Positions 16,267 through 21,715 of a stretch of 64,000 nt of DNA are shown here, in pieces. A program made the position numbers and the translations under genes. Every line of letters starts with the position of its first letter. Position 1 is the stretch's first letter. The notes under the pieces were generated by a model. The model searched no databases, was not told the DNA's origin, and saw nothing but the letters and a program-made list of their open reading frames with translations. The stretch is from Sulfurimonas sp. C5 (lineage in GTDB: Bacteria; Campylobacterota; Campylobacteria; Campylobacterales; Sulfurimonadaceae): the NCBI RefSeq assembly GCF_029872055.1, contig NZ_JARXNQ010000003.1, forward strand, positions 186,001-250,000, in the 5' to 3' direction.

Positions 16267-16307
16267 GTTTTTTATTACACAAACTAGTTATTAAAAGGTG
16301 GGAGTTG

Positions 16308-19300
16308 ATGCTTCAATATCTCTATCGATTCTTTTTCATTGCTATTCTCTTATCCCCTTTACACCTTCTAGCATCTACTAACACCCCTATAAACTATAAT
16401 CTAGATTTAAATCTCACTCAAGATGAAAAAACTTGGCTTTTAGATCACAAAGTTCTTAAAGCGGGAAACGAATTTGATTATGCTCCATGGGATTTCAATA
16501 AAGATGGAAAACCTACCGGCTATTCAATCGATTATGTCAATCTGCTAGCTTCTAAGCTAGGGATAAAAGTCAGTTTTGTTACAGATCACTGGAATGATTT
16601 GACCTATATGCTTGAAACCAAAAAGATTGATCTCCTCCATACAATGTTTGCAAACAGTTTTCGAACAAATATTATTTATACACATTCATATAAACAACTT
16701 GTTTTCGCCCTTTATAAAAACAAACACAACAAAAAACTCAACTCCATAGAAGCACTTAAAGATCAAACTTTGAGTATTCCAAAAGACGACTCAAGCATTA
16801 TAGTGTTAAAGAAACTCTACCCTCAAATTAAAATTATAGAACCTGATAGCTACGTAGATGCACTCAAAGATGTCATACTTGGAAGGGCCGACGCAACTGT
16901 TATGGATACAGCAGTAGCAAGTTATCTCAGTGAAAACTACTCTTTAAGCGATCTTACCATTGTAGATGAAGTAAAACTTCCAGAAGACACTATCCACTAT
17001 AGTTATCGTATAGGTGTAAATGCTGAAAATGAAATTCTACAATCTATTTTAAATAAAGCTATCGCTAGTGTTACTGATGATGAAAAAAAGCAATTAGAAA
17101 ACAAATGGTTCAATAAATCAGCAAAAAAAGTAAAAAAAATAAAATTTACCAAAACAGAAAAAAAATGGATAGCACAACACCCTGTCGTAAAATTTACCGG
17201 GGATCCTGATTGGCTGCCGTTTGAAGCTTTTAAAGAAGATGGTAGCTATATAGGTATTGTAGCCGATCATCTTAAACTGATAGAACAAAGAACGGGTCTT
17301 TCTTTTGAACGTATCAAGCCAAAATCTTGGAGTGATGCACTTGTAAAAGTTAAAGCCAACGAAGTAGATATGATCTCTGAAGTAGTGACAGAAAATTTCG
17401 TAAGTACTAAAATGTATTTTACGAAACCCTACATAGAAACACCTCTCGTTATCATTATGAAAAAAACACAATCAGATCATTTCCTAAACGACCTTTCTGC
17501 TATCAGCGATAAGAAAATAGCTTATGTTAGTGGCTACGGTTATGTTGATGATTTGAAAAAAAAGTATCCGAATATTCATTTTCAAGAGGTAAATACTGTA
17601 CAAGAGGGACTTGAAGCAGTTGCTGCGGGAAAACTGGATGCTTTTATATGTACGCTTGTTATTGGTTCATATAACATACCTCAATTAGGTCTTTCAAATC
17701 TGACTGTTGCAGGTAAATTAGATATTGCAATGAAACTCGGTTTTGGGATTAGAAAAGACTCCCCTATGTTATTAGGCATTATCAATAAGGCTCTTGCTTC
17801 AATTGATTCAACAGAAAAAAATGAGATTGTTAACAAGTGGGTTAAAGTTGATATCGAAGAAAAAATCGACTGGGATCTTGTTTTAGAAATTGCAGGCGTT
17901 GCTGTTATTGTTATTGCTTTTATTGTTTATTCCAATCGACAACTCAAACGTCTTGTTGAGCAAAAGACCGCCAAGCTCAGCTCTTTATTAAAAGCTTTTG
18001 ATCAAAACGTTATTGCTTCAAGTACCGATAAAAATGGAAAAATAACCTATGTCAGTGATGCCTTTTGTGAAATTTCTGGCTATTCCAGAGAAGAACTTAT
18101 TGGAAAACCCCACAATATCTTACGCCATCCAGATATGCCTAAAAAACTCTTTGCCGATCTATGGACAACTATTAAAGCAGGAAAAAACTGGCATGGAGAG
18201 ATCAAAAACAGAAAAAAAGATGGTGGCTTTTATTGGGTAGATATGACGATAACTGTAGAAAAAGACAAAGATGGAAAAGTTTTCAGATACGATGCTATCC
18301 GCCATGATATTACAGCTAAAAAAGCAGTTGAAGAATTGACAAAAACACTAGAGCAAAAAGTAGAAGAAAGAACGGCTGAGCTTACTAAAAGTGAACAAAA
18401 AATCAAAAATGTATTTGCAACCACAAGTCAAGGTATTTGGATGGTAGATAATAATGCCATAACACAAGAAGTGAATAATGCAATGTCTAATATTCTTGGA
18501 TATCCCCAAGATGAAATAGTGGGAAAACATATCTTTCATTTTGTTAATGATGAAAACAAAAAAATATTTGCTGAACAAATGAAAACACGTGAACATGGTC
18601 AAACATCTTCCTATGAGATATATCTTACAAGAAAAAATCGTGTTCAGATACCGTGTCTTTTTAATGCTACGCCCATCTTAGATGAAAACGGTGTCAAAGT
18701 CGGTGCCTTTGCAATGGTTACCGATATTACCGAACAAAAAAAGCTCCAAGCACAAATAGCTGAAAAAGAGAATTTTGTCCGAACCCTTCTTGATTCCCAA
18801 GAACAGATTATTATAACCACAGACGGAAAGAAAATTTACACTATCAACAAAGCCTTTAAAAAATTCTATGGTGTTGAAGTGCTTGAAGATTTTCTCAAAG
18901 ATTATGAATGTATCTGCGACACTTTCGATACGTCAGATCCGGAACACTATCTACAAAAAGAGATGGATGAACTTACGTGGATTGAATATGTTCTTGTAAA
19001 TCCCTTAATGGTACATAAGGCACGGATTATTAGAGATGAGCAAGCTTATATTTTTACTGTTACAGGAGCAGAGCTCCCTATTGAAGGTAAAAATCTAATT
19101 TCTGCAGTTTTTACAAATATTACGGAATTGGAAAAAGTACAAAAGGATCTAAAAAATACAAATCAAAAAGTGATGGATTCTATTGAGTATGCCTCTTTAA
19201 TTCAAGGTGCACTTTTACCGGATAGTCAACTCATGAGCTCCCATTTTGATGATTGTTTTACACTTTGGCGACCAAAAGATGTTGTAGGGGGAGATATCTA

Positions 19301-19949
19301 TCTCTTTACTGAAATCCGCAATAAAGACGAAGCACTTTTAATGGTAGTAGACTGTACTGGACACGGTGTTCCAGGAGCCTTTGTAACAATGCTTGTAAAA
19401 GCGATTGAACGCCAAATTATCGGTGTCTTGGAAAAGACAAATGAAGTTGTAAGTCCTGGAAAAATCCTGGGTATTTTTAACCGTTCTATCAAGCATCTTC
19501 TTAAACAAGACCAAAGCGAGTCTGTTTCGAATGCCGGTTTTGACGGTGGTATACTTTACTATAACAAAAAAAATAACATAGTAAGATATGCAGGTGCCAA
19601 CATCCCTTTATTTGTCAAAAACTCTTCCTCTTTAGAGATCTTCAAAGGAGATAGACACTCTATAGGTTACAAAAATTCTGATAGAGACTATGAGTTTAAT
19701 GATTATGAGTTTGATATTAGGGAATCTACAAGCTTTTATATCTCCACCGATGGATTCTTAGATCAAAATGGAGGAGAAAAAGGATTCCCTTTTGGAAAAA
19801 GACGCTTTAAAAAGCTTATAGAGGAACACTATAATAAAAGTATGAAAGAACAACATATTCATTTCCTTGATGCCCTTCATGAGTACCAAGGGGAAAATGA
19901 ACGAAATGACGATGTATGTCTCGTCGCACTTAAAGTAAGTAACAAATGA
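16308..19949 (+). CDS. Membrane sensor phosphatase: two SBP_bac_3 domains, three PAS domains, SpoIIE/PP2C domain (SiaA-like)
   Basis: About 1213 residues. ATG 16308 is preferred over TTG 16305, with GGTGGGAG upstream. Order: signal peptide (1-23), two solute-binding-like domains (about 30-270 and 285-515), TM (about 525-545), PAS1 (Gly-Tyr-Ser-Arg-Glu-Glu-Leu-Ile-Gly), PAS2 (Ile-Leu-Gly-Tyr-Pro), a weaker PAS3, then a SpoIIE phosphatase (Val-Val-Gly-Gly-Asp, Asp-Cys-Thr-Gly-His-Gly, Ser-Thr-Asp-Gly, Asn-Asp-Asp). The metal-binding Asp residues are intact. It probably senses a small periplasmic solute and dephosphorylates the SiaC-like protein two genes downstream. This sensor is larger than the P. 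aeruginosa SiaA, which lacks the solute-binding pair. Confidence 0.88.
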   Translation: MLQYLYRFFFIAILLSPLHLLASTNTPINYNLDLNLTQDEKTWLLDHKVLKAGNEFDYAPWDFNKDGKPTGYSIDYVNLLASKLGIKVSFVTDHWNDLTYMLETKKIDLLHTMFANSFRTNIIYTHSYKQLVFALYKNKHNKKLNSIEALKDQTLSIPKDDSSIIVLKKLYPQIKIIEPDSYVDALKDVILGRADATVMDTAVASYLSENYSLSDLTIVDEVKLPEDTIHYSYRIGVNAENEILQSILNKAIASVTDDEKKQLENKWFNKSAKKVKKIKFTKTEKKWIAQHPVVKFTGDPDWLPFEAFKEDGSYIGIVADHLKLIEQRTGLSFERIKPKSWSDALVKVKANEVDMISEVVTENFVSTKMYFTKPYIETPLVIIMKKTQSDHFLNDLSAISDKKIAYVSGYGYVDDLKKKYPNIHFQEVNTVQEGLEAVAAGKLDAFICTLVIGSYNIPQLGLSNLTVAGKLDIAMKLGFGIRKDSPMLLGIINKALASIDSTEKNEIVNKWVKVDIEEKIDWDLVLEIAGVAVIVIAFIVYSNRQLKRLVEQKTAKLSSLLKAFDQNVIASSTDKNGKITYVSDAFCEISGYSREELIGKPHNILRHPDMPKKLFADLWTTIKAGKNWHGEIKNRKKDGGFYWVDMTITVEKDKDGKVFRYDAIRHDITAKKAVEELTKTLEQKVEERTAELTKSEQKIKNVFATTSQGIWMVDNNAITQEVNNAMSNILGYPQDEIVGKHIFHFVNDENKKIFAEQMKTREHGQTSSYEIYLTRKNRVQIPCLFNATPILDENGVKVGAFAMVTDITEQKKLQAQIAEKENFVRTLLDSQEQIIITTDGKKIYTINKAFKKFYGVEVLEDFLKDYECICDTFDTSDPEHYLQKEMDELTWIEYVLVNPLMVHKARIIRDEQAYIFTVTGAELPIEGKNLISAVFTNITELEKVQKDLKNTNQKVMDSIEYASLIQGALLPDSQLMSSHFDDCFTLWRPKDVVGGDIYLFTEIRNKDEALLMVVDCTGHGVPGAFVTMLVKAIERQIIGVLEKTNEVVSPGKILGIFNRSIKHLLKQDQSESVSNAGFDGGILYYNKKNNIVRYAGANIPLFVKNSSSLEIFKGDRHSIGYKNSDRDYEFNDYEFDIRESTSFYISTDGFLDQNGGEKGFPFGKRRFKKLIEEHYNKSMKEQHIHFLDALHEYQGENERNDDVCLVALKVSNK

Positions 19950-19969
19950 TTTTGAAAAAGGAAAGATTT

Positions 19970-20530
19970 ATGAAGTTTGATACGCTAGAAAACATATTAG
20001 AAGAAGATGGTATAGTATTTTTAAGTTATGGTGGCTTTTTAACACAGTCATTAATAGCAGGTATGACCGATGCACTTGAACAAGAAGCACAAAACAATGA
20101 TCTAAGTATGAAAGTTTCTGCAAATATTTTTACTATATTTATTGAACTAGCCCAAAACATGATGAACTATGCAAAATCAAAATCAGATGCAATACGTTAT
20201 GAATCTAAAGGGCTTTTAATTGTTGGAACTGAAGCAAAAAACAATCAGGATTACTATTACATCATCAGCAGAAATCTCATAGATGCAATCGATAAAGAGA
20301 GGATAGAAAATCGTCTAAAGACTATAGAAGGACTTGATAAAGAGGAACTTCGTAAACTCTACCGTGAACAAAGAAAAGCGGGTAAAGACAAACATCACAG
20401 AGGTGCCGGAATTGGTCTCATTGAAATTGCAAGACGATGTAATAAAATTGAACACCATTTTGAAGATCAGGGAGATGGACATTTTTACTTTACAGTTAAA
20501 ACAATATTACATAAAGAAAAAGGAGAATAA
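19970..20530 (+). CDS. siaB: SiaB-like protein kinase (HATPase fold)
   Basis: About 186 residues from ATG 19970, which has AAAGGAAAG upstream. An in-frame ATG at 19946 overlapping the phosphatase stop as ATGA is the alternative. The ATP site shows an N-box (Glu-Leu-Ala-Gln-Asn-Met-Met-Asn-Tyr) and a G-box (Gly-Ala-Gly-Ile-Gly-Leu-Ile-Glu). In Pseudomonas, SiaB phosphorylates SiaC and opposes SiaA. The order phosphatase-SiaB-SiaC is the same here. Family assignment is strong; kinase activity is inferred from homology. Confidence 0.85.
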   Translation: MKFDTLENILEEDGIVFLSYGGFLTQSLIAGMTDALEQEAQNNDLSMKVSANIFTIFIELAQNMMNYAKSKSDAIRYESKGLLIVGTEAKNNQDYYYIISRNLIDAIDKERIENRLKTIEGLDKEELRKLYREQRKAGKDKHHRGAGIGLIEIARRCNKIEHHFEDQGDGHFYFTVKTILHKEKGE

Positions 20531-20533
20531 GAT

Positions 20534-20908
20534 ATGAAACGTTTACATTTAGAAGCGACACAATATACTCCCGAAATCACTTTAGATCCAGCAGGTACAA
20601 TCACTATGGTTGGAAAATCTTATCCTGAAAATACATTTGACTTTTATAAACCAATTATGGAGTGGGTAGAAAATTATTTTGATGGCAATACTGCCAAAAA
20701 AACTATAATCAATATGGAAATTATATATTTTAATTCCAGTTCTTCAAAACTCTTTTTTGATCTTTTCGATCTAGTAGATGAAAATAAGGAATCCAGTAAG
20801 ATTGTGATCAATTGGATATACGATAAAGAAAATGAGAGTGCCCAAGAAGCAGGTGAAGATTTTCAGGATGATTTCGAGGACTTAGAGATTAATTTAGTCT
20901 CAAAATAG
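20534..20908 (+). CDS. siaC: SiaC-family regulatory phosphoprotein (DUF1987)
   Basis: 124 residues. The family core is clear: Thr-Pro-Glu-Ile near residue 12, Gly-Lys-Ser-Tyr-Pro-Glu-Asn near 27, and Tyr-Phe-Asn-Ser-Ser-Ser-Ser-Lys at 65-72. The residue matching the phospho-Thr of Pseudomonas SiaC (Thr68) is Ser68 here, still phosphorylatable. The C-terminus is acidic. In Pseudomonas, unphosphorylated SiaC binds and activates the diguanylate cyclase SiaD. Here the next gene encodes an HD-GYP phosphodiesterase instead. AAGGAG precedes the ATG. Confidence 0.88.
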   Translation: MKRLHLEATQYTPEITLDPAGTITMVGKSYPENTFDFYKPIMEWVENYFDGNTAKKTIINMEIIYFNSSSSKLFFDLFDLVDENKESSKIVINWIYDKENESAQEAGEDFQDDFEDLEINLVSK

Positions 20909-20917
20909 GAGAAGATT

Positions 20918-21715
20918 ATGGACAGTGCTGATAATAAACTTATTCATGAACTTGAAGATTTAAAATCCAATTTTTCTAAAACAGCAGATAAAATCATCAA
21001 AGATATCCATCGTCAAGCACGCATTATGGAAAGAAGTGACAAACGACAACGTCAGGAATATGATGAGCTCCAAAGACGTCTTGCAGAAGTAGAAGCACTC
21101 CAAAAAGAGATTGAAGACACGCAAAAAGAGGTTGTTTTTACGATGGGGGCCATCGGTGAGAGCCGATCGAAAGAGACGGGAAACCATGTAAAGCGTGTAG
21201 CTGAATATTCAAAAATTTTAGCAACTTATATCGGATTGCCTGAATCAGAAGCAGAGATGCTCAAACAAGCTTCTCCTATGCATGACATCGGTAAAGTCGG
21301 TATCCCAGATTCCATTTTAAACAAACCTGGACGTTTGGATGCAGAAGAGAGAAAAGTTATGGATACACATGCAGAACTGGGTTACAATATGCTGTCACAC
21401 TCATCAAGACCACTGTTAAAATGTGCAGCCACCGTAGCTTATGAACACCATGAAAAATGGGATGGTACTGGTTATCCACGAGGCTTAAAGGGAAAAGATA
21501 TTCATATCTACGGACGTATTACGGCACTAGCAGATGTTTTTGATGCCCTTGGAAGTGAAAGATGTTATAAAGAAGCTTGGGATGATGAAAGGATATTTGC
21601 ACTTTTTAAAGAAGAACGTGGGAAACACTTTGATCCGCAGCTCATTGACATATTTTTTGAACATTTAAATGAGTTTTTAGAAGTTCGTGATGATTTAAAA
21701 GATGTTTTCGAATAA
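20918..21715 (+). CDS. HD-GYP phosphodiesterase with N-terminal coiled coil
   Basis: 265 residues. Residues 1-75 are charged and heptad-like (coiled coil). The HD-GYP domain follows with His-Asp-Ile-Gly-Lys at 122-126, His-His at 177-178 and Gly-Tyr-Pro at 185-187, all intact, so it should hydrolyse cyclic di-GMP in the cytoplasm. No receiver or PAS domain is present. The coiled coil is the likely docking surface for an upstream partner, plausibly the SiaC-like protein encoded 9 nt before. GGAGAAG precedes the ATG. It ends the operon, with its stop abutting that of the convergent FmdE gene. Confidence 0.9.
   Translation: MDSADNKLIHELEDLKSNFSKTADKIIKDIHRQARIMERSDKRQRQEYDELQRRLAEVEALQKEIEDTQKEVVFTMGAIGESRSKETGNHVKRVAEYSKILATYIGLPESEAEMLKQASPMHDIGKVGIPDSILNKPGRLDAEERKVMDTHAELGYNMLSHSSRPLLKCAATVAYEHHEKWDGTGYPRGLKGKDIHIYGRITALADVFDALGSERCYKEAWDDERIFALFKEERGKHFDPQLIDIFFEHLNEFLEVRDDLKDVFE

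Follow-up and report, generated by a model that had tools for sequence, protein, structure and literature searches.

A SiaA/SiaB/SiaC-type partner switch in Sulfurimonas sp. C5 with an HD-GYP protein as its probable output

In the 64,000-nucleotide stretch of Sulfurimonas sp. C5 DNA analysed here (the window; contig NZ_JARXNQ010000003.1, positions 186,001 to 250,000), four tightly packed genes at 16305-21715 on the + strand code for a SiaA-like PP2C phosphatase, a SiaB-type kinase, SiaC and an HD-GYP protein. Judging from their sequences, these genes probably form a SiaA/SiaB/SiaC partner switch with an HD-GYP output, in which unphosphorylated SiaC would bind the stalk of the HD-GYP protein and gate the breakdown of cyclic di-GMP (c-di-GMP), most likely by activating it. 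An action of SiaC on the coiled coil of the HD-GYP protein was already part of the original prediction for this DNA, and it gains strong indirect support from contact positions in register with those of SiaD, the GGDEF output of the Pseudomonas aeruginosa system, from the restriction of full motifs to SiaC-positive genomes in the two groups searched, from a fixed spacing between motif and output domain, and from the lack of a match to any GGDEF protein of the same genome.

The gene cluster and its probable output enzyme

The siaA and siaB genes overlap, while siaB and siaC are separated by 3 bases and siaC and the HD-GYP gene by 9. Reading frames and family matches agree with the four genes and the positions that had been proposed for them, and the following features are recognised:

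16305-19949, + strand: SiaA-like phosphatase, starting at TTG 16305 or at the next codon, ATG 16308
19326-19937, + strand: C-terminal SpoIIE/PP2C domain of SiaA (Pfam and alignment to 6k4e)
19946-20530, + strand: SiaB-family kinase (DUF6272; NF038262)
20534-20908, + strand: SiaC switch protein (PF09345; Pfam, alignment and predicted fold)
20735-20737, + strand: codon of SiaC Ser68, equivalent by alignment to the Thr68 phosphosite
20918-21715, + strand: HD-GYP protein, the probable output enzyme (HD_5; predicted fold)
20936-21145, + strand: N-terminal stalk of the HD-GYP protein, residues 7-76, a single continuous predicted helix
21011-21064, + strand: candidate SiaC-docking motif R32-D49 in that stalk, matched to the SiaD contacts (PMC8457831)
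21161-21643, + strand: HD-GYP catalytic domain, residues 82-242 (Pfam and motif alignment)

The components of a SiaABC partner switch are all found by sequence, namely a PF09345 SiaC with an aligned phosphosite, a SiaB-family kinase, and a SiaA-related PP2C phosphatase with its metal-binding aspartates. The GGDEF output SiaD that would complete a SiaABCD system was not found, the neighbouring output being the HD-GYP protein. Additionally, all three switch proteins score below the cut-offs of the Pseudomonas equivalog models NF038263, NF038264 and NF038265 of NCBIfam (SiaA 266.6 against 700, SiaB 87.3 against 225, SiaC 103.3 against 150) and are, on these scores, members of the families and not equivalogs of the Pseudomonas proteins.

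The window SiaC matches PF09345 with 127.5 bits (cut-off 24.5) and aligns with 6kko and 6k4f (E about 3e-20), and its predicted fold resembles the SiaC of 7e6g (Z 20.2, root-mean-square deviation 1.3 over 123 residues). In the HD-GYP protein, the motifs HDIGK, THAELGY, EHHEKWDGTGYP and ADVFD are intact, including the conserved histidines and aspartates, which are metal ligands in HD-GYP structures. The protein aligns with 4mcw, which we take to be PmGH, with an E of 1.3e-62, and its predicted fold matches the same structure (Z 25.9, deviation 2.8 over 182 residues, 51% identity). From these sequence features it should break down c-di-GMP. The absence of any sensor domain other than an N-terminal coiled coil, as had been anticipated, is borne out: one helix is predicted for residues 7-76 and no Pfam family scores over its cut-off before the HD domain.

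A candidate docking motif on the stalk

In the SiaC-SiaD crystal (PMC8457831), SiaC is contacted by SiaD residues R74, K77, V78, R80, I81, S82, D83, R84, Y85, Q86, M88, R90 and D91, and Thr68 of SiaC goes between the SiaD stalks, where it bonds S82 and Q86; phosphorylation at Thr68 blocks the binding. SiaD carries two motifs of this kind, S50-Q54 and S82-Q86 (PMC8457831). The pattern R-x2-K/R-I/V-x3-S-D-x2-Q is also present in the stalk of the window HD-GYP protein, and in the same register as the SiaD contacts, with R32 corresponding to R74, R35 to K77, I36 to V78, S40 to S82, D41 to D83, K42 to R84, Q44 to Q86 and D49 to D91.

These positions are strongly conserved in the 39 stalks of 38 HD-GYP-linked loci: R32 in 36, K/R35 in 38, I/L36 in all 39, S40 in 34, D41 in 39, K/R42 in 35, Q44 in 39 and D49 in 37. 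Selection explains part of the conservation of the letters S, D and Q, because an initial pattern that included SD and Q served to collect the HD-GYP and kinase rows for the profiles; R32, I36 and D49 lie outside that pattern. The counts are not independent, because the rows are related by descent. On the SiaC side, Y65, N67, S68, S69, D79 and D113 are invariant in the 38 HD-GYP-linked loci. The HD-GYP stalk has a single motif, while the SiaD relatives in this sample have two.

Profile comparisons connect the stalk types stepwise. The HD-GYP stalk matches the stalk of SiaC-linked kinases (E 2.6e-6), and the latter matches the SiaD-type stalk (E 2.5e-6). A control comparison gave E 0.11, a probability of 0.55% and one aligned column, but it is a weak control, made of 13 diverse pre-GGDEF stretches that are mostly not coiled coils.

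Distribution of the motif across genomes

SiaC is sparse in Campylobacterota, where 12 of 298 genomes exceed the cut-off. When these genomes were searched with A4, a cross-class model of the motif, a full match (27 or more of the 34 model positions) was found in 9 of the 12 SiaC-positive genomes and in none of the 286 others (Fisher 4.9e-15), although 4 of the 9 had given rows to the model. Three SiaC-negative genomes (G009, G095, G128) have weak partial matches only, in open reading frames of 28-84 amino acids, and another genome counted as SiaC-negative, G148, holds a SiaC remnant under the cut-off with two stops. The 244 genomes of Marinobacterium's order were searched with A2, another cross-class model, to which Marinobacterium itself contributed one row. 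The full-length motif was present in 14 of 18 SiaC-positive genomes and in 0 of 226 others (Fisher 1.5e-19); altogether 25 genomes matched, 11 of them only partially, all 11 SiaC-negative. Linkage within the same operon contributes to both of these results.

The genome of the window itself has one SiaC and 56 GGDEF places. Despite the latter, model A2 finds one place in it at E<=10, which is the HD-GYP gene of the window; no GGDEF protein of this genome matched A2 or A4, and none of 71 open reading frames from 30 of the 56 GGDEF loci matched a model of the HD-GYP stalk. In a search with an HD-GYP stalk model, 30 genomes were hit; the match spanned the motif in 7 of them, and in the other 23 it was partial, lying nearly always in the helix that adjoins the HD domain. 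Among 25 named SiaC-positive genomes, many of which supplied rows to the model, a motif match was found in 23, at a single place in 16. Some of the extra places are next to another SiaC copy or share one SiaC locus with the first place, and three do neither. These three are motif-bearing cyclase or kinase proteins (L177:8485-10410, L178:8004-8975 and L179:6329-7579) in genomes with SiaC elsewhere and none within the fetched stretch.

Spacing and coiled-coil phase

In 37 of 41 proteins, 50 residues separate the motif serine from the first conserved histidine of the HD-GYP domain, and the remaining 4 (L022, L029, L035 and L180) have 43, while the start of the motif in these proteins varies from residue 37 to 107. 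The difference is one heptad, which is what a continuous coiled coil allows. In other outputs, the motif serine lies 21 residues before the GGDEF start in 16 of 17 proteins (a PAS domain intervenes in the other) and 37 residues before the phosphoacceptor histidine in all four HisKA kinases measured. For HQWKQP-type kinases the spacing is 57 in each of the 4, out of 9, in which a pattern could measure it. In cyclases the spacing is 31 (four proteins), 24 (one) or 28 (one), with one cyclase and two hybrid kinases left out of the count. Shared descent accounts for part of these fixed spacings; the divergent HD-GYP proteins L053, L055 and L183 still have a spacing of 50.

Weighing the stalk as a docking site

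Several observations weigh against SiaC docking on the HD-GYP stalk. Not all contact positions are kept, as those of SiaD R80, I81, Y85, M88 and R90 and of SiaC I71, R103 and L107 differ. The direct comparison of HD-GYP and SiaD-type stalk profiles is weak (probability 3.8%, E 0.011), though its register is right, and the similarity between HD-GYP and kinase stalks (E 2.6e-6) is helped by the SD/Q selection of both sets of rows. A model built solely from HD-GYP stalks yields a covering match in just 21 of 37 other stalks, with many scores near or below zero. Its area under the curve (AUC) is 0.78 against the 71 own-genome open reading frames and 0.77 against 597 other open reading frames from SiaC loci, the four best-scoring of which are motif proteins missed by an earlier filter. 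Additionally, stalk and SiaC rows share descent, and the cyclase spacing of 28 (in L179) breaks the heptad pattern. We also count here a fold of SiaC and the HD-GYP protein as an in-frame read-through (TAG read as Q), with a predicted local distance difference test score of 84.0 and a predicted template modelling score of 0.50, which says nothing on the interface. Given the weakness of the HD-GYP-only model, the link from HD-GYP to SiaD stalks rests on the kinase-stalk intermediates, the register and the distribution.

If this link were spurious, SiaC would act elsewhere and the HD-GYP protein would be a separately regulated operon companion, with an ordinary dimerisation coiled coil and a motif that is a coincidence of composition. 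The low score of the direct stalk comparison fits this explanation, as do the siaC genes with no motif-bearing neighbour in the stretch examined (e.g., L184, L185, L189, L190, L239 and L242) and the three SiaC-positive genomes with a motif protein encoded apart from SiaC (L177, L178, L179). We nevertheless find it improbable, considering that full-length motifs are limited to SiaC-positive genomes in two separate surveys, that the contact positions are among the conserved stalk columns, and that the window's own genome offers a single motif place and no stalk-model match among its sampled GGDEF loci.

Proposed mechanism

Based on family membership and conserved residues, SiaB would phosphorylate SiaC at Ser68, and SiaA would remove the phosphate in response to sensing by its solute-binding and PAS domains. 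Helices alpha2 and alpha3 of unphosphorylated SiaC would then dock on R32-D49 of the HD-GYP stalk, as SiaC does on the SiaD stalk, and thereby stabilise a parallel stalk dimer, as suggested by the motif that both stalks share, by its register and by where it occurs. The conformation of the stalk would be passed along the heptad-phased coiled coil, over the 50 residues that lead up to the first conserved histidine of the HD-GYP domain, gating the phosphodiesterase. As each HD-GYP stalk has one docking site, a 2:2 complex is predicted, against four SiaC per SiaD dimer in the crystal.

The sign of this gating is a guess. Activation seems the most likely outcome, and c-di-GMP would then be lowered by the same upstream switch that raises it through SiaD. 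Alternatively, the same docking could have the opposite sign, with unphosphorylated SiaC keeping the HD-GYP protein inactive until phosphorylation by SiaB frees it, so that an active phosphatase would raise c-di-GMP as in Pseudomonas. The sequence fixes no sign, and distribution, conservation and spacing fit both versions equally; however, SiaD, the sole output with data that we found, is activated by SiaC through dimer formation (PMC8457831), and we regard inhibition as rather unlikely.

The phosphosite of SiaC

Ser68 of the window SiaC aligns with the Thr68 phosphosite at the start of helix alpha2 and is, by this alignment, the candidate phosphosite. The presence of serine instead of threonine had been remarked on beforehand and is confirmed, but its supposed oddity is not, since serine occupies this position in all 38 HD-GYP-linked SiaC proteins. 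Among 83 aligned SiaC sequences, residue 68 is threonine in 15 of the 16 that are linked to GGDEF proteins (serine in the other) and serine in all 67 others, which comprise 38 with an HD-GYP partner, 8 with a kinase, 4 with a cyclase and 17 for which no partner was called. Ser68 is thus ordinary in this lineage, because threonine goes with a SiaD-type partner (e.g., L062 and L132-L142), to which it is confined, and serine with all the rest. Two divergent SiaC genes, L184:5901-6272 and L185:5312-5686, have the phosphosite context FNSASTK, with no motif-bearing neighbour found in the stretch examined.

In a SiaC tree of 83 rows and 128 columns the output classes cluster, with 16 changes against a shuffled mean of 39.7. 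As 128 columns are too few, exact counts of output swaps are out of reach of this tree: 37 of its 80 inner branches are open, and the HD-GYP label needs 7 changes, of which the starred branches force only 2.

The SiaA-like phosphatase and the SiaB kinase

The SiaA-like protein has SBP_bac_3 twice (at roughly residues 51-270 and 298-515), PAS domains and the C-terminal SpoIIE/PP2C domain by Pfam, and a single long hydrophobic stretch, identified by eye, near residues 528-542. Its PP2C domain aligns with the SiaA structure 6k4e (E 9.8e-57) and preserves GGD, DCTGHG, TDGFLDQ and NDD, including the motif aspartates. Of the three PAS domains that had been described, two are clear, and for the third there is a weak PAS_8 match (E 0.0015) whose 18.8 bits fall short of the cut-off of 21.8. 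The solute-binding domains had been taken as unusual, which did not hold: in 9 relatives tested out of many SiaA proteins, SBP_bac_3 is present in 8 and Phosphonate-bd in the ninth. As far as these domain matches tell, solute-binding domains on SiaA are usual within this SiaC lineage.

SiaB matches SiaB_fam_kinase (NF038262) with 133.1 bits (cut-off 85) as well as DUF6272, aligns with chain A of 6kko (E 2.2e-16), and has its Glu67 aligned with Glu61, the predicted catalytic residue of SiaB. A second in-frame ATG, 8 codons into the gene (19946-20530), fits the family model better, and the first start may be too early.

Related loci and other outputs

The arrangement is not unique to the window's genome. 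An HD-GYP gene, with or without a long insert, directly follows siaC in 29 of 51 loci from a scan that was seeded with the window SiaC, which biases the sample towards HD-GYP partners. The taxa belong to distant phyla and include Sulfurimonas, Arcobacter, Sulfurospirillum, Vibrio sp. HA2012, three Marinobacterium, Colwellia, Methylococcaceae and Mariprofundaceae. Near SiaC, the motif precedes GGDEF domains, class III cyclases, HATPase kinases, hybrid kinases and long-insert HD-GYP proteins. By a model that was built from many of the same loci, a motif-bearing neighbour lies within 4.5 kb in 67 of 86 pooled SiaC loci (after dropping 16 duplicate or superseded loci), or in 63 of 82 when the motif-fetched L127, L128, L175 and L176 are left aside. 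The motif is also present in L024, L032, L067 and, in the longer stretch L241, L143, bringing the count to 71 of 86. Of the 15 remaining loci, L049, L147 and L187 end at a contig end near siaC and L065 and L066 are fragments; in L046, L050, L060, L061, L131, L144, L184, L185, L189 and L190, no motif was found in the stretch examined.

Motif-bearing class III cyclases (PF00211) are encoded near SiaC in L181:5595-6650, L182:3467-4510, L186:1926-2927, L241:4315-5355 and L127:1375-2442, four of them on the opposite strand, and control of cyclic AMP or cyclic GMP by SiaC is possible from these sequences. Long-insert HD-GYP proteins of about 450-480 amino acids, with the insert between the HD and GYP parts, were observed in L002, L004, L005, L014, L019, L042, L044, L045 and L048; in these, too, the motif and the first histidine are 50 residues apart (the insert was read in three), and L005 has two of them in tandem around siaC. 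In L033:5202-6116 and L054:7391-8293, a protein of ~300 amino acids with no Pfam match and a motif-like N-terminal stretch is encoded between siaC and the HD-GYP gene.

In four SiaC loci the motif is carried by both a HATPase kinase and an HD-GYP protein, so that each locus has two such outputs (L039:5659-8193, L045:5462-8743, L067:1521-8203 and L053:7906-10462). Such loci, together with the unlinked motif proteins in G305, G315 and G317, would suit an explanation in which SiaC serves more than one output, acting in trans on a further enzyme besides the HD-GYP protein and changing several signals together. For the window this is doubtful at best, as its own genome has only the one motif place at E<=10.

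Significance

Taken together, the loci make us lean towards seeing SiaABC as a switch cassette that is transferable, with the motif of the stalk as its portable docking port, held in fixed coiled-coil phase on at least four kinds of output (GGDEF proteins, HD-GYP proteins, class III cyclases and histidine kinases). If so, one switch protein would steer opposite or unrelated signals in different bacteria, sometimes with two outputs per operon. It would further explain the use of a separate binding protein, the reason for which is called unclear by the authors of the SiaD study (PMC8457831). Should SiaC gate the HD-GYP protein, this kind of partner switch can also drive c-di-GMP the other way, and a short sequence motif predicts what many SiaC proteins act on. 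Many uncharacterised operons then become testable via one interface, through its predicted contact residues, its predicted 2:2 stoichiometry and the heptad rule of its linker.

The general idea of modulation by SiaC-type proteins is already in print, since the SiaD authors suggest a general role of DUF1987 proteins as modulators of the proteins adjacent to them (PMC8457831). In the open-licence literature of PubMed Central (PMC), as represented by titles and the openings of abstracts, the SiaD cyclase is the only SiaC output found with experimental data, and no HD-GYP, class III cyclase or kinase output of SiaC and no shared docking motif was found.

Comparison with known systems

The closest known system is SiaABCD of Pseudomonas aeruginosa (PMC8457831, PMC7647112). 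Both have the gene order PP2C phosphatase, SiaB-type kinase and SiaC, the same SiaC fold, and a stalk docking motif preceding a c-di-GMP enzyme without a sensory domain of its own. By contrast, the output in the window is an HD-GYP phosphodiesterase, whereas SiaD is a GGDEF diguanylate cyclase; the window stalk has one candidate docking motif and SiaD two motifs (S50 and S82); and the window has Ser68 instead of Thr68 in SiaC and solute-binding and PAS domains in SiaA. HsbA-HsbD and BgrV-BgrR (PMC8457831) are similar in that a STAS-type switch protein controls a c-di-GMP enzyme, but their partners are STAS proteins and their outputs diguanylate cyclases.

As for the enzyme itself, PmGH (4mcw) and PA4781 (4r8z) share with the window protein a catalytic domain with HD and GYP motifs. 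The window protein differs from them in having no detected receiver, GAF or PAS domain, its input being a short stalk with a candidate SiaC-docking motif.

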